In this document: positions 1 through 31,173 of the stretch, piece after piece
How positions within the stretch are numbered: position 1 is the first letter of the stretch
How the letters are laid out: each line of letters begins with the position of its first letter
DNA from: Sphaerochaeta sp. Phil3
GTDB taxonomy: Bacteria > Spirochaetota > Spirochaetia > Sphaerochaetales > Sphaerochaetaceae
DNA: 64,000 nucleotides
NCBI GenBank assembly: GCA_001940825.1
Contig: MSGT01000071.1
Location: forward strand, 1 to 64,000
Direction: 5' to 3'
Made by a program: the position numbers and the translations under genes
Notes under the pieces: model-generated
Seen by the model: only the letters and a program-made list of their open reading frames with translations
What the model was told of the DNA's origin: nothing
Database searches by the model: none

Positions 1-1402
1 TTTCTTTTTCATCATCTATAAGAGTATAGTCAAATAGATCAGCATAAGCCATATCATCTAGACTCACAGTATGAGAAGTTAATACTTTCTTTTTACGAAT
101 ATCTGATGTCTCCCTGAAACCATCCTTTGCATAAATAACTCCATCTACATGAAGCGTATATTTTGGCGATGCAGTGCCTATGCCGACCTGGCCTCCACCC
201 ATACAGCAAACTAAGTTATTAGATGAAGCATGCTGCAAACGCAGCTGATCGTTATAATTATTTATCTCACTACCTCTTCCGCTATCATTTCCGTTGTTAT
301 CTGTTTCAATGCAGATATTATTAAACTTAGCTCCTCCTGTTACATTGTTTGTACCGTCAAAAGGCTTACTGAATATTGTGCGAGGGGTTACAAGCCTAGT
401 TGCCGAAGCTACATTATCACTAATACAAGCTAATGTCTTTTGCCAATAATTATTCTAATTTGTACCAAAAATAATCGGGTTACCGCTTAACGGAAAGTAT
501 ACACCTGTTGAGAATCCTGGATATCCTTCTTCATTTATTCCACTATTACAATACACTTGTATCTGCATATTACCTAATGAATTAGGATGTCCGACTCCAA
601 TAAATAAAGAGTCATCAGCCCCAGTATTAACATTATTATAACACCAGCCTAATACCTTTCTTAAATAGACGTTAGTATCAGTAGAACCAAATTCATTGTA
701 ATCAGGGAAGCCAATTTGACGCATCACTCTATCTCCTACATTACCAAGATGTTTACCGTCCAACAAATCCGCATCCAGCCCTGAACCTGAACCATCGTTG
801 CCGGCATGCCAAACTTTATAATTATTAGACCCTAAAAGAATATTTACGTCTCCGCTTACCCAGTCTTGATTAATATCGGTTTTAGCTATTCTTAGGTTAC
901 CGTCTCCGTCTGTGAAGTTAATTCCAATTCTATTGGAACCTGCATTATTAAAACTGATAGCAGACTTGGTTCTTGGAATAGACGTAAGGTCAATGCCAGA
1001 ATCTGCGTTAAATAACAATTTTCCCGTCATCGTATCCCCGGCCTTGTTGACGTAACGGTTATCCAGTTCGCCTGTGTAATTGCTTGAATTTAGTATGAGA
1101 TTACCATCGGTATACCAATTATTTCCCAAATACCCTATGTATGATAAATCCTAAGAATTCTAGTCTTGCACTTTTATCATGCAGTAATTATCTGCATCTA
1201 GCGATTGTAATATAAGCTTAACATCTAATGCAGTTGATATAGTTGTAGTTGATTTAAAAGTCTTAATTCCGTATATCTCCTAAGCAGTGTCAATTGTTAC
1301 CGCATCAGTAATTCCATAGCCGCTTAGAGTATTTGGTTTATCCCATATCTTATCCCACGATGTGGTAATTATTTTGTCCCCTATAAATATACCTGTATCC
1401 AT
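1..1402 (-). CDS. Tail fibre with C-terminal S74-type chaperone, partial (TAG-recoded)
   Basis: The gene starts at ATG 1402-1400 and runs off the left edge. Four in-frame TAGs (1280, 1160, 1151, 455) are read as Gln. The N-terminal part has tail-fibre repeats of the type SGYGITDA, and the middle has ADLLDGKH, common in fibre shafts. The last visible part (KYTLHVDGVIYA, then FRETSDIRKKK) matches the start of the intramolecular chaperone domain (peptidase S74 family) that trimerises and cleaves itself off fibres and spikes. It should act in host-surface binding. The frame stays open upstream through a 9-base poly-G tract, but no ATG is found there, so 1402 is the preferred start. Confidence 0.85.
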
Positions 1403-1430
1403 TTTATTGATCAGTTGTGTGTGCTATTTA

Positions 1431-1439
1431 CCCCCCCCC
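1431..1439 (-). repeat. Poly-G tract (9 G on coding strand) before tail fibre gene
   Basis: Nine C on the plus strand lie between the stop of the 142-aa fibre-associated gene and the ATG of the tail fibre. It is one of four such tracts in 2.6 kb, all in or beside fibre genes. Such runs slip during replication, so this one may tune or switch expression of the fibre. Confidence 0.8.
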
Positions 1440-1486
1440 TCTAAGCAATAGCTTTATTAATTTAAATGTATTTCAAAGATTATTTT

Positions 1487-1915
1487 TTATGCAGCAGAAG
1501 TTATATAAGCAACTGTGGTTTCTTCAAAACTGCTATCTATTTCAAATAAATAAGATTGTTCTGTTGTAGAAGTGCCAGAATTTGTAGATCCAGATGATGA
1601 AAAGAATAACTATGAGAAGTTATAGTTACTATGTTCAGAAGTATTAGGATTTATATCACATAGAAACTATGAACCTTTAGATCTATCTACCCATAATGCA
1701 AAAGTAGAATTAGGAAGTAATGTTATCTCATGTTCATATGTACTATCTTCTGTTAGCATTATAATAATAGTATCATTAGTAAGATTTATTACTATACCGT
1801 TGGATCCTGGGAAACCTTCTCCTACTTTCTTTACTACATTACCCCCCCCCATTATGAGGTTAGTACCTAAGTAAGCTTTATTGACACTATTAGTGCCTTG
1901 TTTTATTCCATTCAT
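1487..1915 (-). CDS. Small fibre-associated protein with internal poly-G tract
   Basis: 142 aa with two in-frame TAGs (1667, 1610); it ends in TAA at 1487. Its N-terminus (GTNSVNKAYLGTNLIMGGG) shares the pattern GT-x4-K-x-YLG-x-N-x-(I/L) with the proteins at 4033-4458 and 3632-4020, so the three are paralogues interleaved with fibre genes. Nine G at 1842-1850 encode part of MGGGN and keep the frame open. One extra G would give a TAA stop right after the tract. Function is unknown; the position suggests a fibre attachment or decoration protein. Confidence 0.75.
1842..1850 (-). repeat. Poly-G tract inside coding sequence
   Basis: Nine consecutive G on the coding strand inside the 142-aa gene. 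With nine the frame is open (ATG GGG GGG GGT AAT). Gain of one G puts TAA directly after the tract, so the tract could act as an on/off switch. Confidence 0.85.
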
Positions 1916-1916
1916 A

Positions 1917-2528
1917 TTATCCTACAATTAAATAAAGAGTGTTAGATGATTTAGATGAAGCATCATATTGTGCCTAAGTGCAAGATACTATATGAAAGCC
2001 ATCTACTGTATCAGCATTATAACTAGTAGATCCTGCAGGTCCTTGTGGCCCCTGATCTCCTTTGTCACCTTGTGGTCCTTGTGATCCAGTTGCGCCAGTG
2101 TCTCCCTTATCCCCCTTATCTCCTTTCAGATTAGCAGAAGATGTACCTGAAGCAGATGTAACAGTAAGAGTAGTACCATTCCATGAATGTGTACAAGATA
2201 CTCCATCTGTACCTCTATCACCCTTATCACCTTTACTTCCAGTATCACCTTTTTCTCCTTTAACTCCTTGAATTCCTTGTGCACCTTGTACTCCTTTAAG
2301 ATTCTTAAAGTTAAAAGTAAATGTTCTAGCTTGTGCAGTCCCCCCCATAGTTACAGTAACTGCTGGAGTACCTACATTAGAATCTATAGTAGCTGTTACA
2401 TCTGTAATAGAAGCACTTGCCCCATCAGTACCACGTTCTCCCTAAGGGCCTTGAGGACCTTCTTGACTAGAAATCAAAGAACTACCTACGAATAAACCTG
2501 CATCTACATTCTATGCTAACGTTGTCAT
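1917..2528 (-). CDS. Collagen-like tail protein (TAG-recoded)
   Basis: 203 aa from ATG 2528 to TAA 1917, with three in-frame TAGs (1974, 2442, 2511). It holds long Gly-X-Y runs such as [16 protein letters not shown] and [16 protein letters not shown], typical of trimeric phage fibre shafts. The TAG at 2442 falls in GPQGP-TAG-GERG, a position filled by Gln elsewhere in the repeat, which supports TAG as Gln. A seven-G run follows an internal ATG at 2348. The stop overlaps the region just before the next gene start (TAATATG). Confidence 0.85.
2340..2346 (-). repeat. Poly-G tract (7 G) in collagen-like gene
   Basis: Seven G after ATG codon 2348-2346 inside the collagen-like gene. The frame is open with seven. 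It is shorter than the other three tracts but in the same gene set, so it may also slip. Confidence 0.7.
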
Positions 2529-2540
2529 AATTAATTAAAT

Positions 2541-3002
2541 TTATACAGTTGGAACTTCAGGTGTTTCAAGTGCTGCTACTCTATCAGTCAAAGCATTAAT
2601 TAAATCCATTAACTGTTTACCTTGAGCTGCAGATAAAGCCTCTACTATAGAGTCAGAAGTAAGAGTATTGTTTACAGTTACCTTAGCAGCATTTACAATA
2701 TCTGTAGTTTCTTGTTTAGTGTATACTGCCTCACCATCTGCTTTAGTAGCTAATGTAGTTGCTAAGTTCTATTCAGCTTGTGTAGCTCTACTAATCTCAG
2801 CATTAAGGTTACTCTTGATCTGATTAATCTATTCAGTCTAATCAGCGTTGTCACTATTGTTAATAGGTATCCACATGCCATCAGTATTACTCTTTATGAC
2901 ATTGCCTGAACTATCTGCAGATAAATCAATCCAATATGCTACTTCAGTTGGATTAGGAGCATACTTAGATGCTACAAAATTAATATTTTCTTGTCTTATC
3001 AT
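2541..3002 (-). CDS. Small tail or baseplate-associated protein
   Basis: 153 aa, ATG 3002 to TAA 2541, with three in-frame TAGs (2769, 2829, 2838). The central part (about residues 55-100) is rich in A, E, Q and N with a heptad-like pattern, suggesting a coiled coil. The C-terminus reads ALSAAQGKQLMDLINAL then RVAALE, typical of coiled-coil segments in phage fibre-associated proteins. Assignment rests on its position between an M15 peptidase and collagen-like fibre genes. Confidence 0.65.
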
Positions 3003-3012
3003 AATATTTTAA

Positions 3013-3411
3013 TTATAAAGCTAATACTTGTTTACGTAATCTCCCTTCTCTATATGATACATGAATCCAAGAGAAATCAGATTCATTAATTAACTGATCA
3101 AATGGAAGATTATCTTTAATATACTCAAATAACTTCTTGTTCTCTTCTTTACTGCCTGCAGTAATATCAGCTGCTTCTCCATATAAGTGCTAACTGTTAT
3201 TAGCTTTACTGCCTACGGCTTTATTTAAGGCCTCACAACGATATCCTGAGTTAACTCTGATAGGTTTACCATACCATTCCCTTAAAGGGTCTAGAATAGC
3301 CTCTATTAGCTTCTACAGTTTAGCTAAGATCTCCTATGAAGGAGTATTATCTATATCTTTTGCTTTTGCAGTAGAAGACTCGGTCATCTCTTCAATTGTA
3401 AAGTGTTTCAT
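3013..3411 (-). CDS. M15A-type peptidase (endolysin or tail-associated)
   Basis: 132 aa, ATG 3411 to TAA 3013, with three in-frame TAGs (3313, 3334, 3190). It has the D-Ala-D-Ala carboxypeptidase M15A layout: SGYR at 55-58, SQHLYGEAADI with His75 and Asp82, and WIHVSY with His117, the three zinc ligands. It probably cuts peptidoglycan peptide cross-links in lysis or entry. One TAG is the Gln before the first zinc His (S-Q-H), the usual residue there. The ATG overlaps the TGA of the upstream gene. Confidence 0.9.
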
Positions 3412-3602
3412 TCTTTTTGTTGTTTTCTATTATTATTAGATAAATCGTCCATCATATTACCTAATAAATCCGCAGCTAAGTTCATACCGAATTGTTTAGA
3501 GTCATTATCAATCTCACTGACTTTAACATTAATCTAGAGTAATAACATATATATCTACTCTAGTAATTCTCTATCTGACATATGAACTAAGTACGGATTC
3601 AT
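3408..3602 (-). CDS. Small hypothetical late protein
   Basis: 64 aa, ATG 3602 to TGA 3408, with TAGs at 3534 and 3555 read as Gln. The sequence is helical and charged (SDRELLEQIYMLLLQINVK) and ends in a polar NNNRKQQKE tail. The stop overlaps the start of the M15 peptidase (ATGA), so translation is probably coupled. Function unknown; a lysis accessory role is possible from its position only. Confidence 0.65.
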
Positions 3603-3631
3603 CTTTATTTAAAAGTATAATTGTAATTATA

Positions 3632-4020
3632 TTATTGTGCAGAAATTAGTACTATTATTCCATTATAACCAGCTAAGTCTATTGGAATATACTCTCCCGC
3701 TACTAAATAAGATAAGGGCTATACATCACCTCTATCTGTACATCCACATACCCAAACATCTTCTGTAACTCTCATATTCTACCATTTTTCTTGATAGAGG
3801 GTTATGAATGATACTCCATTTGGTAAAACAGTATAGTGAGCATCTTCATCATCCATTTTGAGAGTTACTTCATCACCACTAGTGTTAACGTACAGTATTA
3901 ACTATGAGTGATTTTCCATGTCCTATACTGTATTCCTATACAGCGTTAACCCCCCCCCAGTTGCTAGCTACCAAGGAATATTTTACCTATGTTCTGTGAA
4001 CCTAATTTAGCTTCTTCCAT
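3632..4020 (-). CDS. Fibre-associated paralogue, frame broken at poly-G tract
   Basis: From ATG 4020 the protein starts EEAKLGSQNIGKIFLGSQQ, matching the paralogues at 4033-4458 and 1487-1915. After the nine G at 3950-3958 this frame meets TAA at once, while the matching C-terminal part (LTLYRNTVQDMENHSQLILY to LISAQ, TAA 3632) continues in another frame. Ten G (or seven) would join them into about 130 aa. The sequenced state is therefore OFF, or the product depends on slippage or frameshifting. TAGs occur on both sides (for example 3964, 3902, 3779). Confidence 0.7.
3950..3958 (-). repeat. Poly-G tract at frame break
   Basis: Nine G on the coding strand exactly where the N-terminal and C-terminal halves of the gene change frame. 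A length change of one or two G, which such tracts acquire easily, would restore the fusion. Confidence 0.85.
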
Positions 4021-4032
4021 ATTGTTCAATAT

Positions 4033-4458
4033 TTAAGCTGTTATGTAATAGATGGCACAATTTTTATAAGAGCCGGCATTTATAATCTAATTTTTACTGA
4101 TCACTTGATTTGAACGACAAATCATTTCTCCAAAATCTCCACCTTCATGTCCAACAGAAAATATAGATATAGTCATATCCACGTAAGCCTTAAGAGTAAT
4201 AGATGAACTTCCATCACTATTCTAAGCATCATAAACTTTAACTGATTTTTTTGGTATAACTATTGCTTCAGAAAAGCTATTATCGTATATGTATACAGTT
4301 TTGTCTTCATCCGAAACATTTATAAAACAATATCCACTTGCATTATTACGAAATAGTGTTTCATCTACATTATAATTAAGACCGGTTAAATCAGCTAATA
4401 TATTATTTCCAAGATATACTTTACTAGCGTTTTGTGTACCAACTTTGAGTTTACTCAT
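4033..4458 (-). CDS. Small fibre-associated protein (paralogue)
   Basis: 141 aa, ATG 4458 to TAA 4033, with TAGs at 4222 and 4087. It begins KLKVGTQNASKVYLGNNI, the same module as in the genes at 1487 and 3632, but without a poly-G tract. The middle (FINVSDEDKTVYIYDNSF) looks like a beta-rich domain. It probably decorates or anchors a fibre; this is inferred from the repeated gene arrangement. Confidence 0.75.
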
Positions 4459-4476
4459 AAGATTTTATAATTATAT

Positions 4477-6231
4477 TTATTCAGTTACTGCATACATTGT
4501 ATTAGCATCCTTAGGATCTAGTGCTGCATAATCTGTAGCAGATATTTTAGTTGCGGTAGTAAGATTATTAGATTGCATTATGTCATTAATTTTAACGTGA
4601 TAAGAATCACTAGTTTGTATAATGCTTATTCTTTTCGTAATTTGAGTATCCGCAATATAATATGTTATTATAAAATGAAGTTCATAAATAGTACTATTCT
4701 ATGACTTATACGCATTAACTGAACTCATTTCAATTACATTAGCATTTACTCCTGTAACGTTAAACCAATATCTAGTGCGATTACTAATTATATCACTGAC
4801 AACATTCCTAAAACTCTATTCATTACCAAATATACTAATTATCCAATTCGATGCGGTAGTATCTGAAAGATGTGCATTAGTCGTTAAGAGTGAAGCATCT
4901 GATATTTCTATTGTAGATCCAGAAGATAAATCATCTACGTATTTTTTAGTAGCAGGATTATACTTATTAGTTGGAGTATATTCATCAGTATTATTTTTTA
5001 ATAATACCTAATCTTCATTAGCAATTCTGGTACTATCAGCACTAATAAGTAAATCGCTCTATATACCTATGAAATACTTAAATATATCAATATTATAGGA
5101 AATAATAATATTACTATTATCATACCAAGCCATTGCCGGAATGTAATAGCCAGTACTTTGCAATTCTCCTAAACCGTAATCGATCATTATTATCTTATGA
5201 TCATTAATTGCGGCTAATAGATTATCAAAGTCAGATTGTTTAACTTTTCCATCACTAATAGTAGGAATGAAAGTATAAACATCCTATTTAATTACACTCT
5301 TAGTAACAGTTATATCCCTAGTAGAGCCGTTAATACGTATATATACCCATAGAGGATAAGCAGAATCTTGATCTATTACAAAGTTAAGACTAATCTCATT
5401 ATCTATAGCATAAGCGGCTACAGGTATTCTTGACCCAGTAGTTGTTAGATCGGCGATACCTACAGGAACAGTTATAATCTTTCCATCAGTAATAGCTTGC
5501 TATAGTTTGGTGTAATCATCTTGTGTAACTTTGTTAGATTGAATAGTTGGGCTAAAATAGTATACTTCAGGAGTTGTCTATAAACCTTTTATAACTTTTG
5601 TAAAACTAGCTTGTCCGTTTTCATATCTTATTAGAATAGAGTTAAGATCACTACCTACCTAACTATACAGGTTTAATGTTCTATTAAGTGAGCTTGAATT
5701 AGTAGAACACATAGCAAATATGAAAACTATAGACTAAGAGGTACCAGCATAGTTAGCGGCTAAAATTAACGGCTTATTATTAGAAGCAATTTCATTAGTT
5801 AATTCTATAAACTAGTCTAATCCGCCAAATGCATCTAATATCTCATCTGAAGTGCTAGTATTCTCAAGAAACATGATACCCTCAGGTATCATTATATAAT
5901 CATTTATTTCAGACCAAGTTGCATTCTATCTACCATACAACTTACCATCTTCAGGAGCTTCTGCGATACCGCCTCCAGTACCTCCACCACCAATCTCTAC
6001 CCAATTACTTGTTTTAGTATAATCGGTAGAGGTAAGCTGATACAGCTTACCTGGTCTATCCTCACATGTAACATTCTTTCCTTTATATACCCATACACTA
6101 CCTTCTTCATCAGTCCAAGTCTCAGCTTTGGTTAGATCCGCATAGGTAGGAACTATACTACCTGCTTCAAGTGGTGCATCTTTCTTTACTTCTAAGTTAC
6201 CACTAAAATTAAATGTTCCTTTATTTCTCAT
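4477..6231 (-). CDS. Tail fibre or tail structural protein (11 in-frame TAG)
   Basis: 584 aa, ATG 6231 to TAA 4477, with no TAA or TGA inside and 11 TAGs, so it is unreadable in the standard code. The N-terminus has a carbohydrate-binding-like segment (AETWTDEEGSVWVYKGKNV, then KLYQLTSTDYTKTSNWVEIG) followed by a Gly-rich hinge GGGGTGGGI. The rest is beta-rich with repeated units ending in SPTIQSNKVTQDDYTKL and IPTISDGKVKQSDFDNL. This layout fits a trimeric tail fibre. Confidence is high for the gene and moderate for the role. Confidence 0.8.
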
Positions 6232-6233
6232 AA

Positions 6234-9200
6234 TTATGCAAATGTAATTTTAAATGATGAAGATCCATTAATACCATCATTACGTGTATATGTTTTATAT
6301 TCTACTTGACTTCCTTGTACTTCTATATTCTCTGTAGTCACTGTGAAACGATCTATACTATAATCTTCGTACTTATCATTTAATGTATTTAATAGAGTTA
6401 TAGAACTTACTGTGAATTTAGAAGGTAATTTGAAAGCATGTTTATTATCTGCTGTTTCAGCTACATAAGTAATATCCAATAACTTACTAGTAGATAATGG
6501 CAATTTAGCAAATGTAGTAATATTATCCTTATTAGTAAAGTAAGGATATACGCCTGTAACAGTTAAAGTCTTAGTATTACCAGGAACAATACTGTTAAGT
6601 GTAGCATTCTCTTTAGCTACAGTCTTATGTTCATCACTAGTCTTACCAAGATTAGAACAAGCGTAATATATAGGCATAGATGCAAATGTAGCAGTTGCTT
6701 TTGGGCCTGTAATATCTACCTTCACTGTATTACTTCCTTCAATTGCATTAAATACTTTACTTTCTAAAGTAACAGCAGAATGATCTGTATTAGGAGTAGC
6801 ACTTTCTGATTCTCCATTTACTAATCTAGTCATAGTATAATTTTCTTCTAACAGATTTACATTAGAACCATTTATAGTAATAGTATTATTATCTGAGTCT
6901 TTACTGTTATCATTGGCAGCACTATAACCATAAGTAAATCCAGAATACTTTCTAGGAGTACTAGATGCTACAGCTGCAGATAATGTAGTATCACTAATAG
7001 TAATAGGGGTACCTACTTCTACTAATCCAGTAGAACTCAATGTGAATGAAGGAACTGAAATAGTAGCTTTAGATGTACCTTCTGTAAATGTAAGACTACC
7101 AGGCCACAATTCCTTAGTAAACAATGTCATAAATAAATCCTACAGATTAGTATCAGAACTAATACTAGTAATACCAGCACTGTTAAGTAAACTAGCTAAA
7201 GGGCCACCAGCTACAGGTATCTCATTAGTAGTCTTTACAGCTTCGGTATTTACTTCGGTTTCTACCGTTATATAAGTTCCATTATCTGCTAAGAATTTAG
7301 TACCATCGCCATTAGTAAGTATCTTATTAAGTTTAATACTTTCTTGACTAGTAATGATACCAGCTGATGTTGAACTAGCTTTCGGTAATGTTACATTCTT
7401 CTCACTAGTAGTAATACCGTTAGCTAAATCTACAGTCATTATAGCGTCATCAGCAGTACTATTAGCAAAGTCAATATCAGTAATAGCAGAGTTAGTCTTC
7501 TTGTCTAATTCAGTCTGTACTGCGGTAGAAACTGGTTTATCAGCATCACTAGTATTATCTACATTACCTAATCCTACTTGAGCCTTAGTTACAGAATGTG
7601 GATTCTGCTTATTAGTGATATGAGTAGTAAGATTACTCTAAACAGCACTGATATCAGCAGTAATACCTTCCTGAGTCTTTAGATCGTTTAGTTTAGTCTT
7701 ATCTGCTGCTGACATTACACCAGCTTTAGTAGTAGTAGCTGATTGAATGTCTAAGCTTACAATTCTACGATTAAACCTACTGTCTAGGTCATCTCTTTCT
7801 ATACCCATAGAATTAATTTGTACTGCTGTATCACTGGGAACAATAGTTGTCAAGCCAACTCTAGTTCCTATAGATGTAACAATATCAGTAGTAACTTTAC
7901 CTTTATCACCAGCATAAGCTGTACTAGATGTTTCACCTAATGCTAATGATTGAGATATCTCTATGTATCTAGTACCTGACCATCTATAAGTAAGATTAGT
8001 ATCTAATGTAACATATATCTTACCAGCTTCCCCTACTTCAGGTAGCTCATCAAATATAGCTACTTCTATTACGTCATCTACATATGCAGGCAATTGTGAT
8101 GAAGGAATAAGACCTTTGCCATCTAATGATGCGAATCCATTAGGTTGACCTTTAGTAGCTATAAATCCATTTAACTAGTTGCTTACTTCAGTGATTTTAG
8201 TGTTGTTGTCCTGATCACCTTTCTGTCTTTCAGTAGTTTCATTAGAAATAGCTGTAGATAATTCTGCCTCTTTACCAGTAGCTCTAGTAGTCTCTGCAGA
8301 TATAGCCTATTGTAATTCAGTATCTGCTTGCTTCCTATCTGTTATCTCTGTAGAAATACGAGTATTAATAGCAGAATCAGCCGATTGATAATTAGCAGTT
8401 ATGTTATTCTCTGCATTCTTAGCGCGAGTGACCTCTGCATTTAAATCAGTACGTAATGCTTCATCAGCTTGAGTACGAGCAGTTTCCTCTGCAGTTATAG
8501 CTGCTTTTCTATCAGCTATCTCAGTATTAATCTTATCAGTAACTGCATCTATAGCATCACCTCTATCCGCAATCTCCTTATCTATTCTGCCACCTAATGC
8601 AGTATCTGCCGCCTCTCTGTCACTAGATTCTGTTGTAATGCGATTACCTAATGCAGTATCAGCCTGTGAACGAGTAGATGCTTCTGCATCGATATTACTT
8701 TGTAATTGTCTATCTGCAGCTTCTCTAGCTTCTCTTTCAGCCTATATATCTTCAGCGACTCCAGTATCTAGCCTTACTTTATCTGCAGCAGTCATTATAC
8801 CTGCGGTAGTAGTAGTAGCGGCTGGGATGTCTCTATATAGATTACCAGAATCCGCATAAACGCCATCTATTACTCTAGAAATAGGCTGTACTACTGTTAC
8901 TTTATCTGCAGCGGTAGTAATAGTTGTCTTTTCAGTTAGCCACATCTTTGGCATTGAATCAAACAACTTCTTATCTGCAGCAGCCATAAGACCTGCTTCA
9001 GTACTAGTAGATGAGTCGAGTACTACAGAACTATCTGTATTATTCACATACAGTTCATCACTGCCTCTTTTCTTATTGTTTACATTTATCTTATTAGTAG
9101 TACTTGTTTTCTCAACTGTACTACTTACATTAGACAGTACCGTATCAGGCAAGCTGTCTATAATATCTTTACTATGTTTACCCTTACCACCATCGTAAGC

Positions 9201-9845
9201 AGTACCAGTAATCTCACCTATGATTAATGGACCACCGTCATTTACTGAAACCCATATTGACCCAGACCATCTAAACGAATATGCAGGCTGACCTTCTTCA
9301 ATATTTATATATATCTTACCTACTTCTCCTATTACAGCTTGAGTATGTTTAGCATCTTTATACAGTTTAATGTTGTTTAACTAGCCAATAGGAGATACAT
9401 CATACGTAGCGTATACTTCTATTATATCGTCAACATACGAAGGCACAATAAATTGTTTGCTGTTTTCATCCCATCTATATATAGCATCAGACTTTTCACT
9501 ATCTAGAGGGGTAAGAAATACATACAACTGGGTTTTAGACGGATCACTAATTGTATACGTTCCATCCTCTTGGTACATATACAACTTCTTGTCTCCTGTA
9601 TTAAAGTATACATCACCTACATTAGAAGCATAGAACTCTAATTCTGAGGCACTCTGTATACACTATTTAATATTTACTAAACTCTGCAAACTAATGTTCT
9701 AATCGGTAACTTTCTGAAAGTAATCTATTACACCTTCCAGATTTAGTTTACCATTAGAAAACGAATCCTGGAAAGGGATATTCTCCTTTCCAGTTAGTTC
9801 GTTTCTTAGTTCGAGTTCACTTATTTTAACTCCTTTTACTATCAT
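6234..9845 (-). CDS. Giant tail fibre protein (TAG-recoded)
   Basis: 1203 aa, ATG 9845 to TAA 6234, with eight in-frame TAGs (9699, 9663, 9381, 8742, 8307, 8175, 7638, 7140). It carries many copies of the fibre motif T-x-AG-(V/I/L)-M-x-AADK-x-(K/R/L)-L (for example TTKAGVMSAADKTKLNDL and TTTAGIMTAADKVRLD) and a long low-complexity rod of AEISRATQAE-like heptads around 8.2-8.8 kb. Two segments of type EVGKIYINIEEG and EAGKIYVTLDTN precede SWSG-like strands, as in carbohydrate-binding fibre domains. The TGA of the upstream gene overlaps its ATG. Confidence 0.85.
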
Positions 9846-10135
9846 TTCGATTCGTCGTCTTTAAGTTCTTCTACTTCCTTAGTTGCTTCGAGAAAAGCTT
9901 GGATAAAGGCAGGTTTGCAGTATTGACTTACATACTTATTCAGTACTTCTACTTCTTCAGATGTAAGTTCTACTTCATTATCTGAATTGTAGATCTTGAA
10001 TGCTAAAGCATGGTCTTTAATACCACTACCTACTTCATATATCATTTCACCTATTTGTTCTCTAACATCAATACAGACTTTGTTAGTTTTCTTAATATCT
10101 GTATATACTTCCAGTTGTGCAAAATTTATTTTCAT
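9842..10135 (-). CDS. Hypothetical late protein, possible fibre assembly factor
   Basis: 97 aa, ATG 10135 to TGA 9842, with no TAG. Beta strands at the N-terminus (MKINFAQLEVYTDIKKTNK) are followed by an acidic helical C-terminus (TSEEVEVLNKYVSQYCKP ... VEELKDDESK). It sits between two giant tail genes with ATGA overlap to the next one, which often marks small assembly proteins. No family was recognised. Confidence 0.7.
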   Translation of the reverse strand: MKINFAQLEVYTDIKKTNKVCIDVREQIGEMIYEVGSGIKDHALAFKIYNSDNEVELTSEEVEVLNKYVSQYCKPAFIQAFLEATKEVEELKDDESK

Positions 10136-10150
10136 AATTATTTATGTAAA

Positions 10151-12958
10151 TTATAAACTAACATCATATAATATACCACCTCTAAAGCGTAAATATATAT
10201 CTTTAGTATTAATAGCATCTCTCCTTAATGCTCTTACCTCACCAGTGTATCCTTCATACCGCTTATAATTACTGTCCATAAAAACAATTTTACTAGTTGT
10301 TAAATTTAACTAATTATTATAAGCGCTATCCCTAAGTACAATACTGTTGCCGTCAATGTATGTTCTATTCGCTATATTATCTGTTCCGTCTTGTATAACA
10401 ATACTACTATTATTCATAGATAGGGTAGTAGCACTACTGCTACTATTGATATTTAATCTTGCTCCTGTACCTGCATAATCAGATTTTACTTCAAAAACAG
10501 TAGTATTATTTCTAATCATACTCATACTTCTATCCTAAGAAGATATCAATATACGTGTACCTTCTTTATTACTAGAAATAGTACCATTAAATTCGCCATC
10601 AGTAGCGTAAATAGTACCAGTAAAAGATCCACTTGTAGCATAGACAGTACCTTCAATGTATGCATCTCTAGCGTATAACTTACCATCCTGAGTGACTCTA
10701 AACGGAGCATCGCCTCTCTTTTCTTCAGTAGCACCAGCCCATATTCTAATTGCAGATCCATTGTTACCTCCTGCTCCAGTAATACCAGCTACTACTGTAA
10801 AGTTATTAGTACCAGATTCATATCCTACTCTGACTGCATTACCACTTACAAAGTCTAATTTAGCATCTTTAGCGATAATTAAATCTGTATAGATACTTTC
10901 TACATTAGTAGTAAATTCTTCCCAATAAGCAGCTCCACCAGAAGTACCAGGAGCATTACTATCACTAGATATATGTGGAGCGACAGTATATATACATTTG
11001 TATACTTTATAACCAGTAGCTGCACCAAAGTCTCTTACAAGTACAATGTCTAAATAACGTATCTTAGATACTGATTGAGGAACGTCTTGATCATTACGAT
11101 ATTCTCTGTTAGGTTTCCATTCTGATCTACGAATAATTAAACCATCAGCTCCATCAGATCCATTAGAACCAGGAATACCCTAATCCCCTTGTTCTCCTTT
11201 AGTCTTACTCCATTTATAGTCAGCCGGATTAGTACTATCGTTAACATTTAAGTCAGTAAGTAGGCCTAACCAATCACCAGGATCCTCACCATTATTACCT
11301 GTAAATGTACGACCACCGTCATTAGAATATTTTATATGTAAATAATAAGTCTTACCGTCTATACCTATACCTGGTATACCTTGCTCTCCTTTTTCACCCT
11401 GTACACCTTGGAATCTAGCCCAAGTATAATCTGCAGGATTATTACTATCTGCATAGTTAAAGTCTACATAAGTACCAATGTATACATCCGGAGTTTCAGT
11501 CATTTGACTAGCTGTAGGATTTTCTACGGGTGAGTACTTGATATGGAAATATGATACTTCACCCTTATCTCCTTTAGATACCTATTCCAACCAGTTAGGA
11601 CTTGAACTACTAGGTTTGTCATCTGCTCCATTAGGATTGATACATAACCACAAGTAACCCTCTACACTTACTCTATCATAATAATCATAATGAGTATTAG
11701 GTTCCCACGCACCACAATCATTTGCTACTCTTACTTCATCTCCATTTGGCTTTACTTGAGTAATAGTACCAGTGAAATATACTGAGTTAAGATATGCTGA
11801 ATAACCAGTCATTTCATAACCAAATATATTCAAATTACTAAGATCACCAAACTACATAGCTATATTCTTAGCCTTGTGATCCCATGTATTTTGTTTTACT
11901 AAGTAACGTGTATAAGTACGAGTTGAATAACAAGATGTCTGACGATCTACATTAGTTTTATTACCGTATGCTACGAAGTTCATCTGAGCACAAGGATGGA
12001 ACGTCATATTCCAGTATTCGTCTACAGGTCTAAGTCTATAACCAAATTTCTTATTCTAACTATCAAGTATATTTGTAACTTCAAAGTATACAGTATAGAA
12101 ACCGGCAAACTTTCTATTACCTTTACCATCGTCTTCATCCTATTCAGCATTCTCTTGAGTTCTTTCAGAATGGAATATACCCATACAAAGGTCTCCTACA
12201 GATACTGCTCCATATTCACCTTCTTCCAGCTTTAAAGTAATAAGACCAGTATATTGATCTAATTCTTCAACACTTTCAATTACACCTGCACCAGGGGCAT
12301 TCCATTTATCTCCTAATTGAATCTCTACACGATTGTAACGTAACTCTGGCACCTCCAGGAATCTACGTAAAGTAAGACTATCAAATTCAGCATGACCAAA
12401 CTTATCAATCTTACCACCAAAACCAGTAAGACCTGAAGCAAATCCTTCTTGACCAAAGATAGCAGAGTCTTTAAACCATACTTCATAAGGAGTAGAATCA
12501 GGTTTAATTTTACTTATATATATGTCATCATACAGTTCAGTATTCAGATTCTTGTTTGTCCATTTCTATAGTTCGCTATCCCATGCAAGAGCATTATCAT
12601 TACGTAAGTTCTTTATCTCTACGTCTTGCAAGTCTGTTAATCTACCAAGTAAGCCTGTTACTACTTTGCTAGCAGCTATATTAGACCATCTATCTCCATC
12701 ATACTGCAATAAGTCCAGCTTAGTAGGATCTACTATATTGGTATCTTTCATTAACTCAATTCTATTCTACAAGTTAATCTATGTTTGTATAGAATTGAGA
12801 TCATTCTTCAGTTTGTCTATATCTGAAGTATTAGCTGCTGTAACCTTATTAGTACTAGTTAACTACTAATTTTGCACATAGTTTACAAGGCTATCTGACA
12901 CAGTCTTAATAGCTATAGTATTCTTCCTTACCTATCTTTCTAATTCTTCTGTAGTCAT
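10151..12958 (-). CDS. Large tail protein with collagen-like segments (13 in-frame TAG)
   Basis: 935 aa, ATG 12958 to TAA 10151. There are 13 TAGs, including two in a row (12866 and 12863), which rules out simple sequencing error or occasional readthrough. The N-terminus is a coiled coil (TTEELERQVRKNTIAIKTV). Residues about 200-300 have a domain around VPELRYNRVEIQLGDKWNAP. Two Gly-X-Y stretches (QGVQGEKGEQGIPG and KGEQGDQGIPGSNG) flank repeats on DVYIGTYVDFNYADSNNP and LTDLNVNDSTNPADYKW. The C-terminus is a beta-helix-like tip. It is likely a tail spike or baseplate fibre. Confidence 0.8.
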
Positions 12959-18887: not shown

Positions 18888-20360
18888 TTAGTCTTCAGCT
18901 TCCATGATCAGCTCACCGCAAGCACGAGGATCACGCAACATAATACCCATTTCACCAAGGAAGAATACGGTATAACCGTCCTTACCATTAGATCTCAGAG
19001 TATTCTTAGAGTTAGCGTAACCAGACGGAGCTACAGCACCACCAGTGTACCAAGTAACGAATTCACGATCCTTACGTACTACCTTAACGATGTTAGCTTC
19101 ACCATCACGTCTACCCAGATCAAGGAATGTCATACGATATGATTCCAGCGGTTTCAGAGTTACAGGATGTAACTGACGATTATAAACAGGATCATCGTAC
19201 AACGGGAAATATTTCAAAGTAAGCTCAATACCATTGGTCATTTGGTAAGTCTTGAACTGACCACCGAACTTCAGGCTATCACCAGAACCAGTTACAAATA
19301 CTGTATCCATTAAGTTCATAGTAGCTACCTTTTCCTTCAAGATACGGTCAAATTCACGCATACCCATTTCACCAGTCAAAGCAACGAATTTACGTTCGTT
19401 AGTACCAAGTACATTATAAGACAGGTCAAACAAGAAGTCTTCCAACAGTTCAGCACTTAAATGAGTATAGTAACGCTTGTTAGACGGAGCAATCTGTTCC
19501 AACAGACCAGCACCAATGAATACAGGACGACCATTAGTACCCTTCAGATTACAAGAACCATCTTTGTTTACATTAGATTTCATGTAAACCAACATACGTT
19601 CACATCTCTTATACCATTCACGAAGAGCAACCCATTCCTGATAGTCAGCCCACAAATAAGATTTCTTACCAGTTTTAGGATCTTGCAGAGCAATAGCCAT
19701 TACTGTAGAATACGCAGAACCTGTAATATCGTAGTTGATACGAATAGTAGTAAGGTAGTTACGCATCTTAAAGTGAGTACTATAGTTCAGGATATCACCT
19801 TCTTCACTGTACTCTTCAACAGCAGAAGCAAGACGATTAACTTGGCTACCAGCTTTCAGATATTGTGCAGGAACATAAGAAGTAGGATTACCATCAGCAA
19901 TGAAGCAAGTATATACCCAAAGATTACCATCTTGATAAGGTGCACCAGCAACACGCAGTTGATATTCCTTATTGTCCAATTCCAATACAGCAGTAGGACC
20001 GAACCAATTTTCTTCCAACCACAGATAGATAGGAGTATTACCCAAACCTGCAGTAGTAGTATCAGTGATAGCAGCACCATTCCATTTAGCATCTCTAATG
20101 GTAATAGCTCTATCTGCATCAATCATTACATTCCACTCCCAGCTCGGTTGATCAATAGTCATTACATTACCAAGACCGCCAGTCAGCATGTCGAGGGAAG
20201 TATTGTAACCATTATCTTTAGTTCCGAATACATAAGACAACACTGTAGCAACTTGATACGGATTCTACTGAGAAGCAGCAGAGATTTTATTGGTATCAAT
20301 CAAGTCTGAGAAACGTTTGCCTTTGTACAAAACCAAATTATTCAGAATATTATTATCCAT
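18888..20360 (-). CDS. Major capsid protein
   Basis: 490 aa, ATG 20360 to TAA 18888, a single TAG (20268, Gln in ASQQNPYQVA). The sequence around LSYVFGTKDNGYNTSLDML, the length and the position after an acidic scaffold gene match crAss-like HK97-fold capsid proteins as I recall them. Other features are YLWADYQEWVALREWYKRC (E-loop or spine region) and a C-terminal GKDGYTVFFLGEMGIMLRDP. GC-richer codons than the neighbours and near absence of TAG fit very high expression. Confidence 0.85.
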
Positions 20361-31098: not shown

Positions 31099-31173
31099 TG
31101 GTAGCCCCACTAGGATTCGAACCCAGACTAAGAGGGTTAGAGCCTCCTGTGCTAGCCATTACACCATAGGGCA
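31099..31173 (-). tRNA. Suppressor tRNA, anticodon CTA (reads TAG)
   Basis: Folds as a full cloverleaf with encoded CCA. The D stem is GTGT/GCAC, the anticodon stem GGAGG/CCTCT has loop CTCTAAC, so the anticodon is CTA, and the T arm is CTGGG, TTCGAAT, CCTAG. Pair 1-72 is T.T, so the helix end is weak as in tRNA-Gln, and the discriminator is A. It is on the late strand just upstream of terminase. It can decode the in-frame TAGs of all genes to its left. Gln as the inserted residue is inferred from TAG positions in collagen-like and M15 motifs. Confidence 0.92.

Follow-up and report, generated by a model that had tools for sequence, protein, structure and literature searches.

The gene at 3632-4020 and its surroundings

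The window, that is, the whole stretch of DNA analysed here, comprises the first 64 kb of a contig of 100,100 bases that was placed in a 2.36 Mb bacterial bin. A gene of its tail region, designated gene A (3632-4020, reverse strand), consists of three successive parts: a head that runs from the ATG at 4020 to the tract (3959-4020) and reads MEEAKLGSQNIGKIFLGSQQ, with one TAG read as glutamine; a run of nine G, designated tract A (3950-3958); and a tail of 105 codons (3632-3949), which is out of frame with the head and OFF in the assembly. With TAG as glutamine, the frame opened by the ATG gives MEEAKLGSQNIGKIFLGSQQLGGG and then meets a TAA at 3948-3946 directly behind the tract; as assembled with nine G, translation of gene A ends after 24 residues. 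An earlier note on this DNA had reported nine G followed by TAA, which is accurate for both the run and the stop codon, with the amendment that it holds only if TAG encodes glutamine; read by the standard code, the frame from this ATG would already stop at a TAG before the tract. For head and tail to be joined, the number of G has to leave a remainder of 1 when divided by three (7 or 10). An internal ATG at 3919 in the tail could yield a headless product of 95 aa.

Gene A begins with a head (K.G..N..K.YLG, about 20 residues) that is also present in a second gene, designated gene C, and in the neighbour of gene A at 4033-4458 (reverse strand). This neighbour is unbroken and lacks a tract; its head, of the same type, reads MSKLKVGTQNASKVYLGNNIL. 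When the joined gene A protein is compared with this neighbour, the alignment spans the join (69 residues, 28%, E 2e-6), which supports the reading with 7 or 10 G as the true protein. The C-terminal part of gene A alone reaches only E 1.7 against the same neighbour, and homology was not demonstrable among the C-terminal domains of gene A, gene C, the neighbour and cr4_1, a related phage described below. Thus, where the earlier note had described a paralogous C-terminal half in another frame, the open frame is confirmed, while paralogy is clear for the head only.

Gene A, gene C and the neighbour are surrounded by structural genes (tail fibre, VOG7718), an M15 peptidase endolysin, a collagen-like gene, a fibre-like gene and lysis genes; the collagen-like gene carries a phage tail tip motif. 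The products of the three genes belong to no recognised family in Pfam or PHROGs, and an AlphaFold2 model of the joined gene A protein, built from three sequences, had a pLDDT of 41 and was discarded as unusable. Judging solely by position, the products are probably tail parts or adhesins.

Origin and genetic code of the contig

We assign the contig to a crAss-like gut phage (Crassvirales), because 18888-20360 encodes a Crassvirus major capsid protein (PF23898, E 1.8e-223) and because most of the tail region matches, at 96-98% identity, those of cr114_1 (NC_055897), cr125_1 (NC_055900) and cr4_1 (NC_055893), three Irish faecal phages. The records of these near-identical phages are independent and come from a separate study, and all of the compared sequences are metagenomic assemblies. 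Given that the capsid gene of the window phage has no match in 137 other genomes of the bin's family, the phage contig is likely to have strayed into the bacterial bin. It should also be noted that related crAss-like contigs were found in three bins that are not evidently Bacteroidota, namely the window's own bin, one labelled Bacilli and one labelled Mollicutes.

Three observations, all drawn from the sequences, indicate that TAG is glutamine in the genetic code of this phage: (I) a tRNA with a CTA anticodon, likely a TAG-reading (suppressor) tRNA, is encoded at 31099-31173 on the reverse strand; (II) long ORFs appear only with TAG as glutamine, most of the late genes being open only under TAG read-through; (III) the relatives carry CAA or CAG in place of a window TAG at 8 of the 10 positions that differ. 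The stop codons of all 19 genes examined are TAA or TGA.

G tracts in the window and in related phages

G/C runs of at least eight bases occur only three times in the 64 kb (3950-3958, 1842-1850 and 1431-1439); all three lie within 2.5 kb of one another and have G on the coding strand. Dinucleotide shuffles gave a mean of 0.06 matches, compared with 6 observed, and none of the 100 shuffles reached the observed number. Furthermore, GGG makes up 3.9% of the glycine codons in the phage genes, and other glycine runs use GGT, GGA and GGC. Evidently, the tracts are attributable neither to codon usage nor to ordinary glycine linker coding.

The run at 1842-1850, tract C, belongs to gene C (1487-1915), in which the head MNGIKQGTNSVNKAYLGTNLIM is followed by the tract in frame. 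Gene C is ON in both the window and cr114_1, each with nine G, and OFF in cr4_1, which has 8 G. In cr4_1, unrelated sequence with an open frame of its own begins right behind tract C, and the homology between it and the window stops at the last G of the tract. The run at 1431-1439, tract D, also of nine G, lies outside any ATG-started frame, in the interval between gene C and the fibre-like gene; the ATG of the latter follows about 29 bases further downstream. The fibre-like gene (1-1402) is truncated in the window by the end of the contig, and its counterpart in cr114_1 encodes 647 aa. Tract D comprises 9 G in the window, 10 G in cr114_1 and 12 G in cr125_1, and may affect how the fibre-like gene is transcribed or translated; no Rfam elements were found within 1-12000, and promoter-like matches were no more frequent than expected by chance. 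A shorter run of seven G, tract B (2340-2346), is in frame inside the collagen-like tail gene at 1917-2528 and has the same length in the window, cr114_1 and cr4_1. All of these genes and tracts lie on the reverse strand.

Tract A has nine G in the window, 7 G in cr114_1 and 11 G in cr4_1, so that three genomes present three lengths and three phases, each length being the consensus of one assembly. With 7 G, gene A of cr114_1 forms one uninterrupted frame of 128 residues (ON); with 11 G, that of cr4_1 is OFF in the third frame. The head (62 bases) and the tail (315 bases) are of equal length in the window, cr114_1 and cr4_1 and contain no indels, the heads differ by a few bases only, and gene A shows no length change other than that of the tract. 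The change in run length therefore toggles the gene between a full-length frame at 7 G and one cut short at 9 and 11 G. The intact copy in cr114_1 (NC_055897.1 59116-59499, 7 G) is unannotated in its RefSeq record.

The earlier note had suggested looking for differences in G number in related genomes, and tract A provides them. Its statements that ten or seven G would join the frames and that the break lies exactly at the tract are borne out by the read-through in cr114_1 and by the otherwise colinear heads and tails of the three genomes. Its proposal of slipped-strand phase variation likewise gains support, both from the ON and OFF lengths in near-identical phages and from the variation of the neighbouring tracts. 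As a background for these differences, the window and cr114_1 were aligned over about 12.6 kb of flanking tail and structural genes, where they are 97.5-97.8% identical. This alignment contains at most 3 single-base gaps, none of which falls in a G run; they consist of a clean gap of one base in an A run and two gaps that compensate each other.

In cr114_1 and cr4_1, the slot at 4033-4458 is filled by a gene unrelated to that of the window; cr125_1 has a truncated one there. Given that the flanks are more than 90% identical, the sequences indicate gene exchange in the tail region at this slot.

The arrangement of head, tract and tail was also found in a crAss-like contig of the Mollicutes Phil14 bin (a MAG), a distant relative with 52% identity at a neighbouring protein. 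This contig has three tracts (9, 8 and 8 G) in three different tail-region genes, and each separates an ATG-started head from an open frame (256, 350 and 179 codons); all three genes are OFF as assembled. Two of the heads are alike (MSHF...TITITPT...ETVT.QT) and all are unlike those in the window, which suggests that it is the arrangement that recurs and not merely one gene. The trait is not shared by the order at large, since a nine-G run is absent from 25 other relatives in IMG/VR, many of them near full length. IMG/VR yielded no close relative for the flanks of gene A, the neighbouring gene or a 97 aa protein at 9842-10135, and a scan of the genome collection for the gene A flanks gave no match. 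A general head-plus-G-run pattern had 11 IMG/VR matches, none with a comparable head and tail, and the Phil14 head pattern had no match there.

Interpretation and comparison with known systems

Given the enrichment of tracts, the length differences between near-identical genomes, the read-through in cr114_1 and the recurrence in the Phil14 contig, we consider it quite probable that gene A is an accessory virion-associated gene, probably for an adhesin, that is switched when slipped-strand events lengthen or shorten a poly-G run behind a short conserved head. Replication slippage, as the presumed cause, would change the number of G in tract A: 7 or 10 G would bring head and C-terminal domain into one frame (ON), 9 G would leave the gene OFF, and 11 G would leave it OFF in the third frame. 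Gene C would be switched like gene A and be ON in the window, and a change in the length of tract D would alter the leader of the fibre-like gene. The switch would presumably be reversible and serve to vary the receptor-binding surface of the phage. A further idea, that the G runs are both on/off switches and joints where C-terminal adhesin domains are exchanged between phages, is tentative and on balance doubtful; homology ends at a tract in one clear case (gene C of cr4_1), too few for us to claim domain exchange.

It is unlikely that a G-run indel instead killed gene A in this lineage and that the gene is now being lost. Such decay would agree with the tail of gene A, in which 9 of the 10 differences between the window and cr114_1 are nonsynonymous; such a pattern shows no trace of purifying selection and is compatible with relaxed constraint too, although the changes are too few for dN/dS to separate constraint from decay. 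The lack of a recognised family and the absence of gene A from cr125_1 point the same way. Nevertheless, the tail frame contains neither a stop codon nor an indel in either of the OFF genomes, the length changes are confined to the tract and take three different values, and both gene C and the Phil14 phage show the same architecture, with long intact tail frames.

Still less probable is programmed frameshifting of the ribosome at the G run, or slippage of the transcript there, by which a fixed fraction of full-length product would be made and gene A would not be OFF at all. G runs can be slippery, and the join falls at the run itself; however, the lengths of 7, 9 and 11 G cover every one of the three phases, and at 7 G head and tail are joined without any shift. 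Programmed frameshift sites keep their length and phase. Gene A was thus not classed as a programmed frameshift gene, since tract lengths and phases differ between genomes in place of a conserved slippery site and phase. An assembly or sequencing error at the homopolymer is the least credible explanation: all sequences are metagenomic assemblies and G runs are error-prone, but the differences are of two bases and are found in independent records of another study, tract B keeps its 7 G across three genomes, and indels are almost absent from other coding sequence.

If switching of tail-region genes by slippage is true, it would give a phage population a cheap way to hold several surface types simultaneously, and it is directly testable from existing metagenome reads. 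Such genes are also lost by gene callers, as gene A is in cr114_1 despite being intact there.

Poly-G contingency loci are known from bacteria, in ORFs in Campylobacter and in promoters and ORFs in Treponema. The logic of slippage is the same, but those loci are chromosomal surface genes, whereas the tracts described here lie in a phage genome. The bacterial bin itself contains eight promoter-like sites of the form TTGACAAT.TGC-(mostly G run)-TAGACT, on contigs C4, C27, C46, C60, C61, C68 and C70, that is, TTGACA-G run-TAGACT with the G run in the spacer; it also has G runs inside ORFs. From these sites, the bin bacterium looks like one with poly-G phase variation of its own. No matches to LpxC or SusC were found in the bin.

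A different system is suggested by a related crAss-like phage, cr52_1 (NC_055888.1 25117-27648), in whose annotation a reverse transcriptase and a tail protein named 'major tropism determinant' stand side by side between the endolysin and the lysis genes. A diversity-generating retroelement would thus occupy the same tail-region slot, but there variation arises from a template repeat that is reverse-transcribed, unlike at the G tracts. The genes annotated in the matching interval of cr114_1, cr125_1 and cr4_1 include no reverse transcriptase. Given the content of the slot in cr52_1, different crAss-like genera may vary it by different mechanisms.

The closest likeness is to the Campylobacter phages (Fletchervirus), which have polyG phase-variable receptor-binding proteins (Sorensen et al. 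2021 Cell Rep 35:109214, cited in PMC10579305 and PMC10877375). According to these accounts, poly-G runs lie in host-recognition genes and their length makes the expression of receptor-binding proteins phase-variable. In contrast, the phage described here belongs to an unrelated order, the Crassvirales, and has a TAG-recoded genome; its tracts stand behind a short conserved head, with one tract outside coding sequence, and one tract marks the exact point at which homology between genomes stops. We found no description of polyG phase variation in crAss-like phages in the open literature. Taken together, the sequence comparisons suggest that a phenomenon already known from Campylobacter phages extends to the crAss-like phages, which would be a new and abundant phage order for it.
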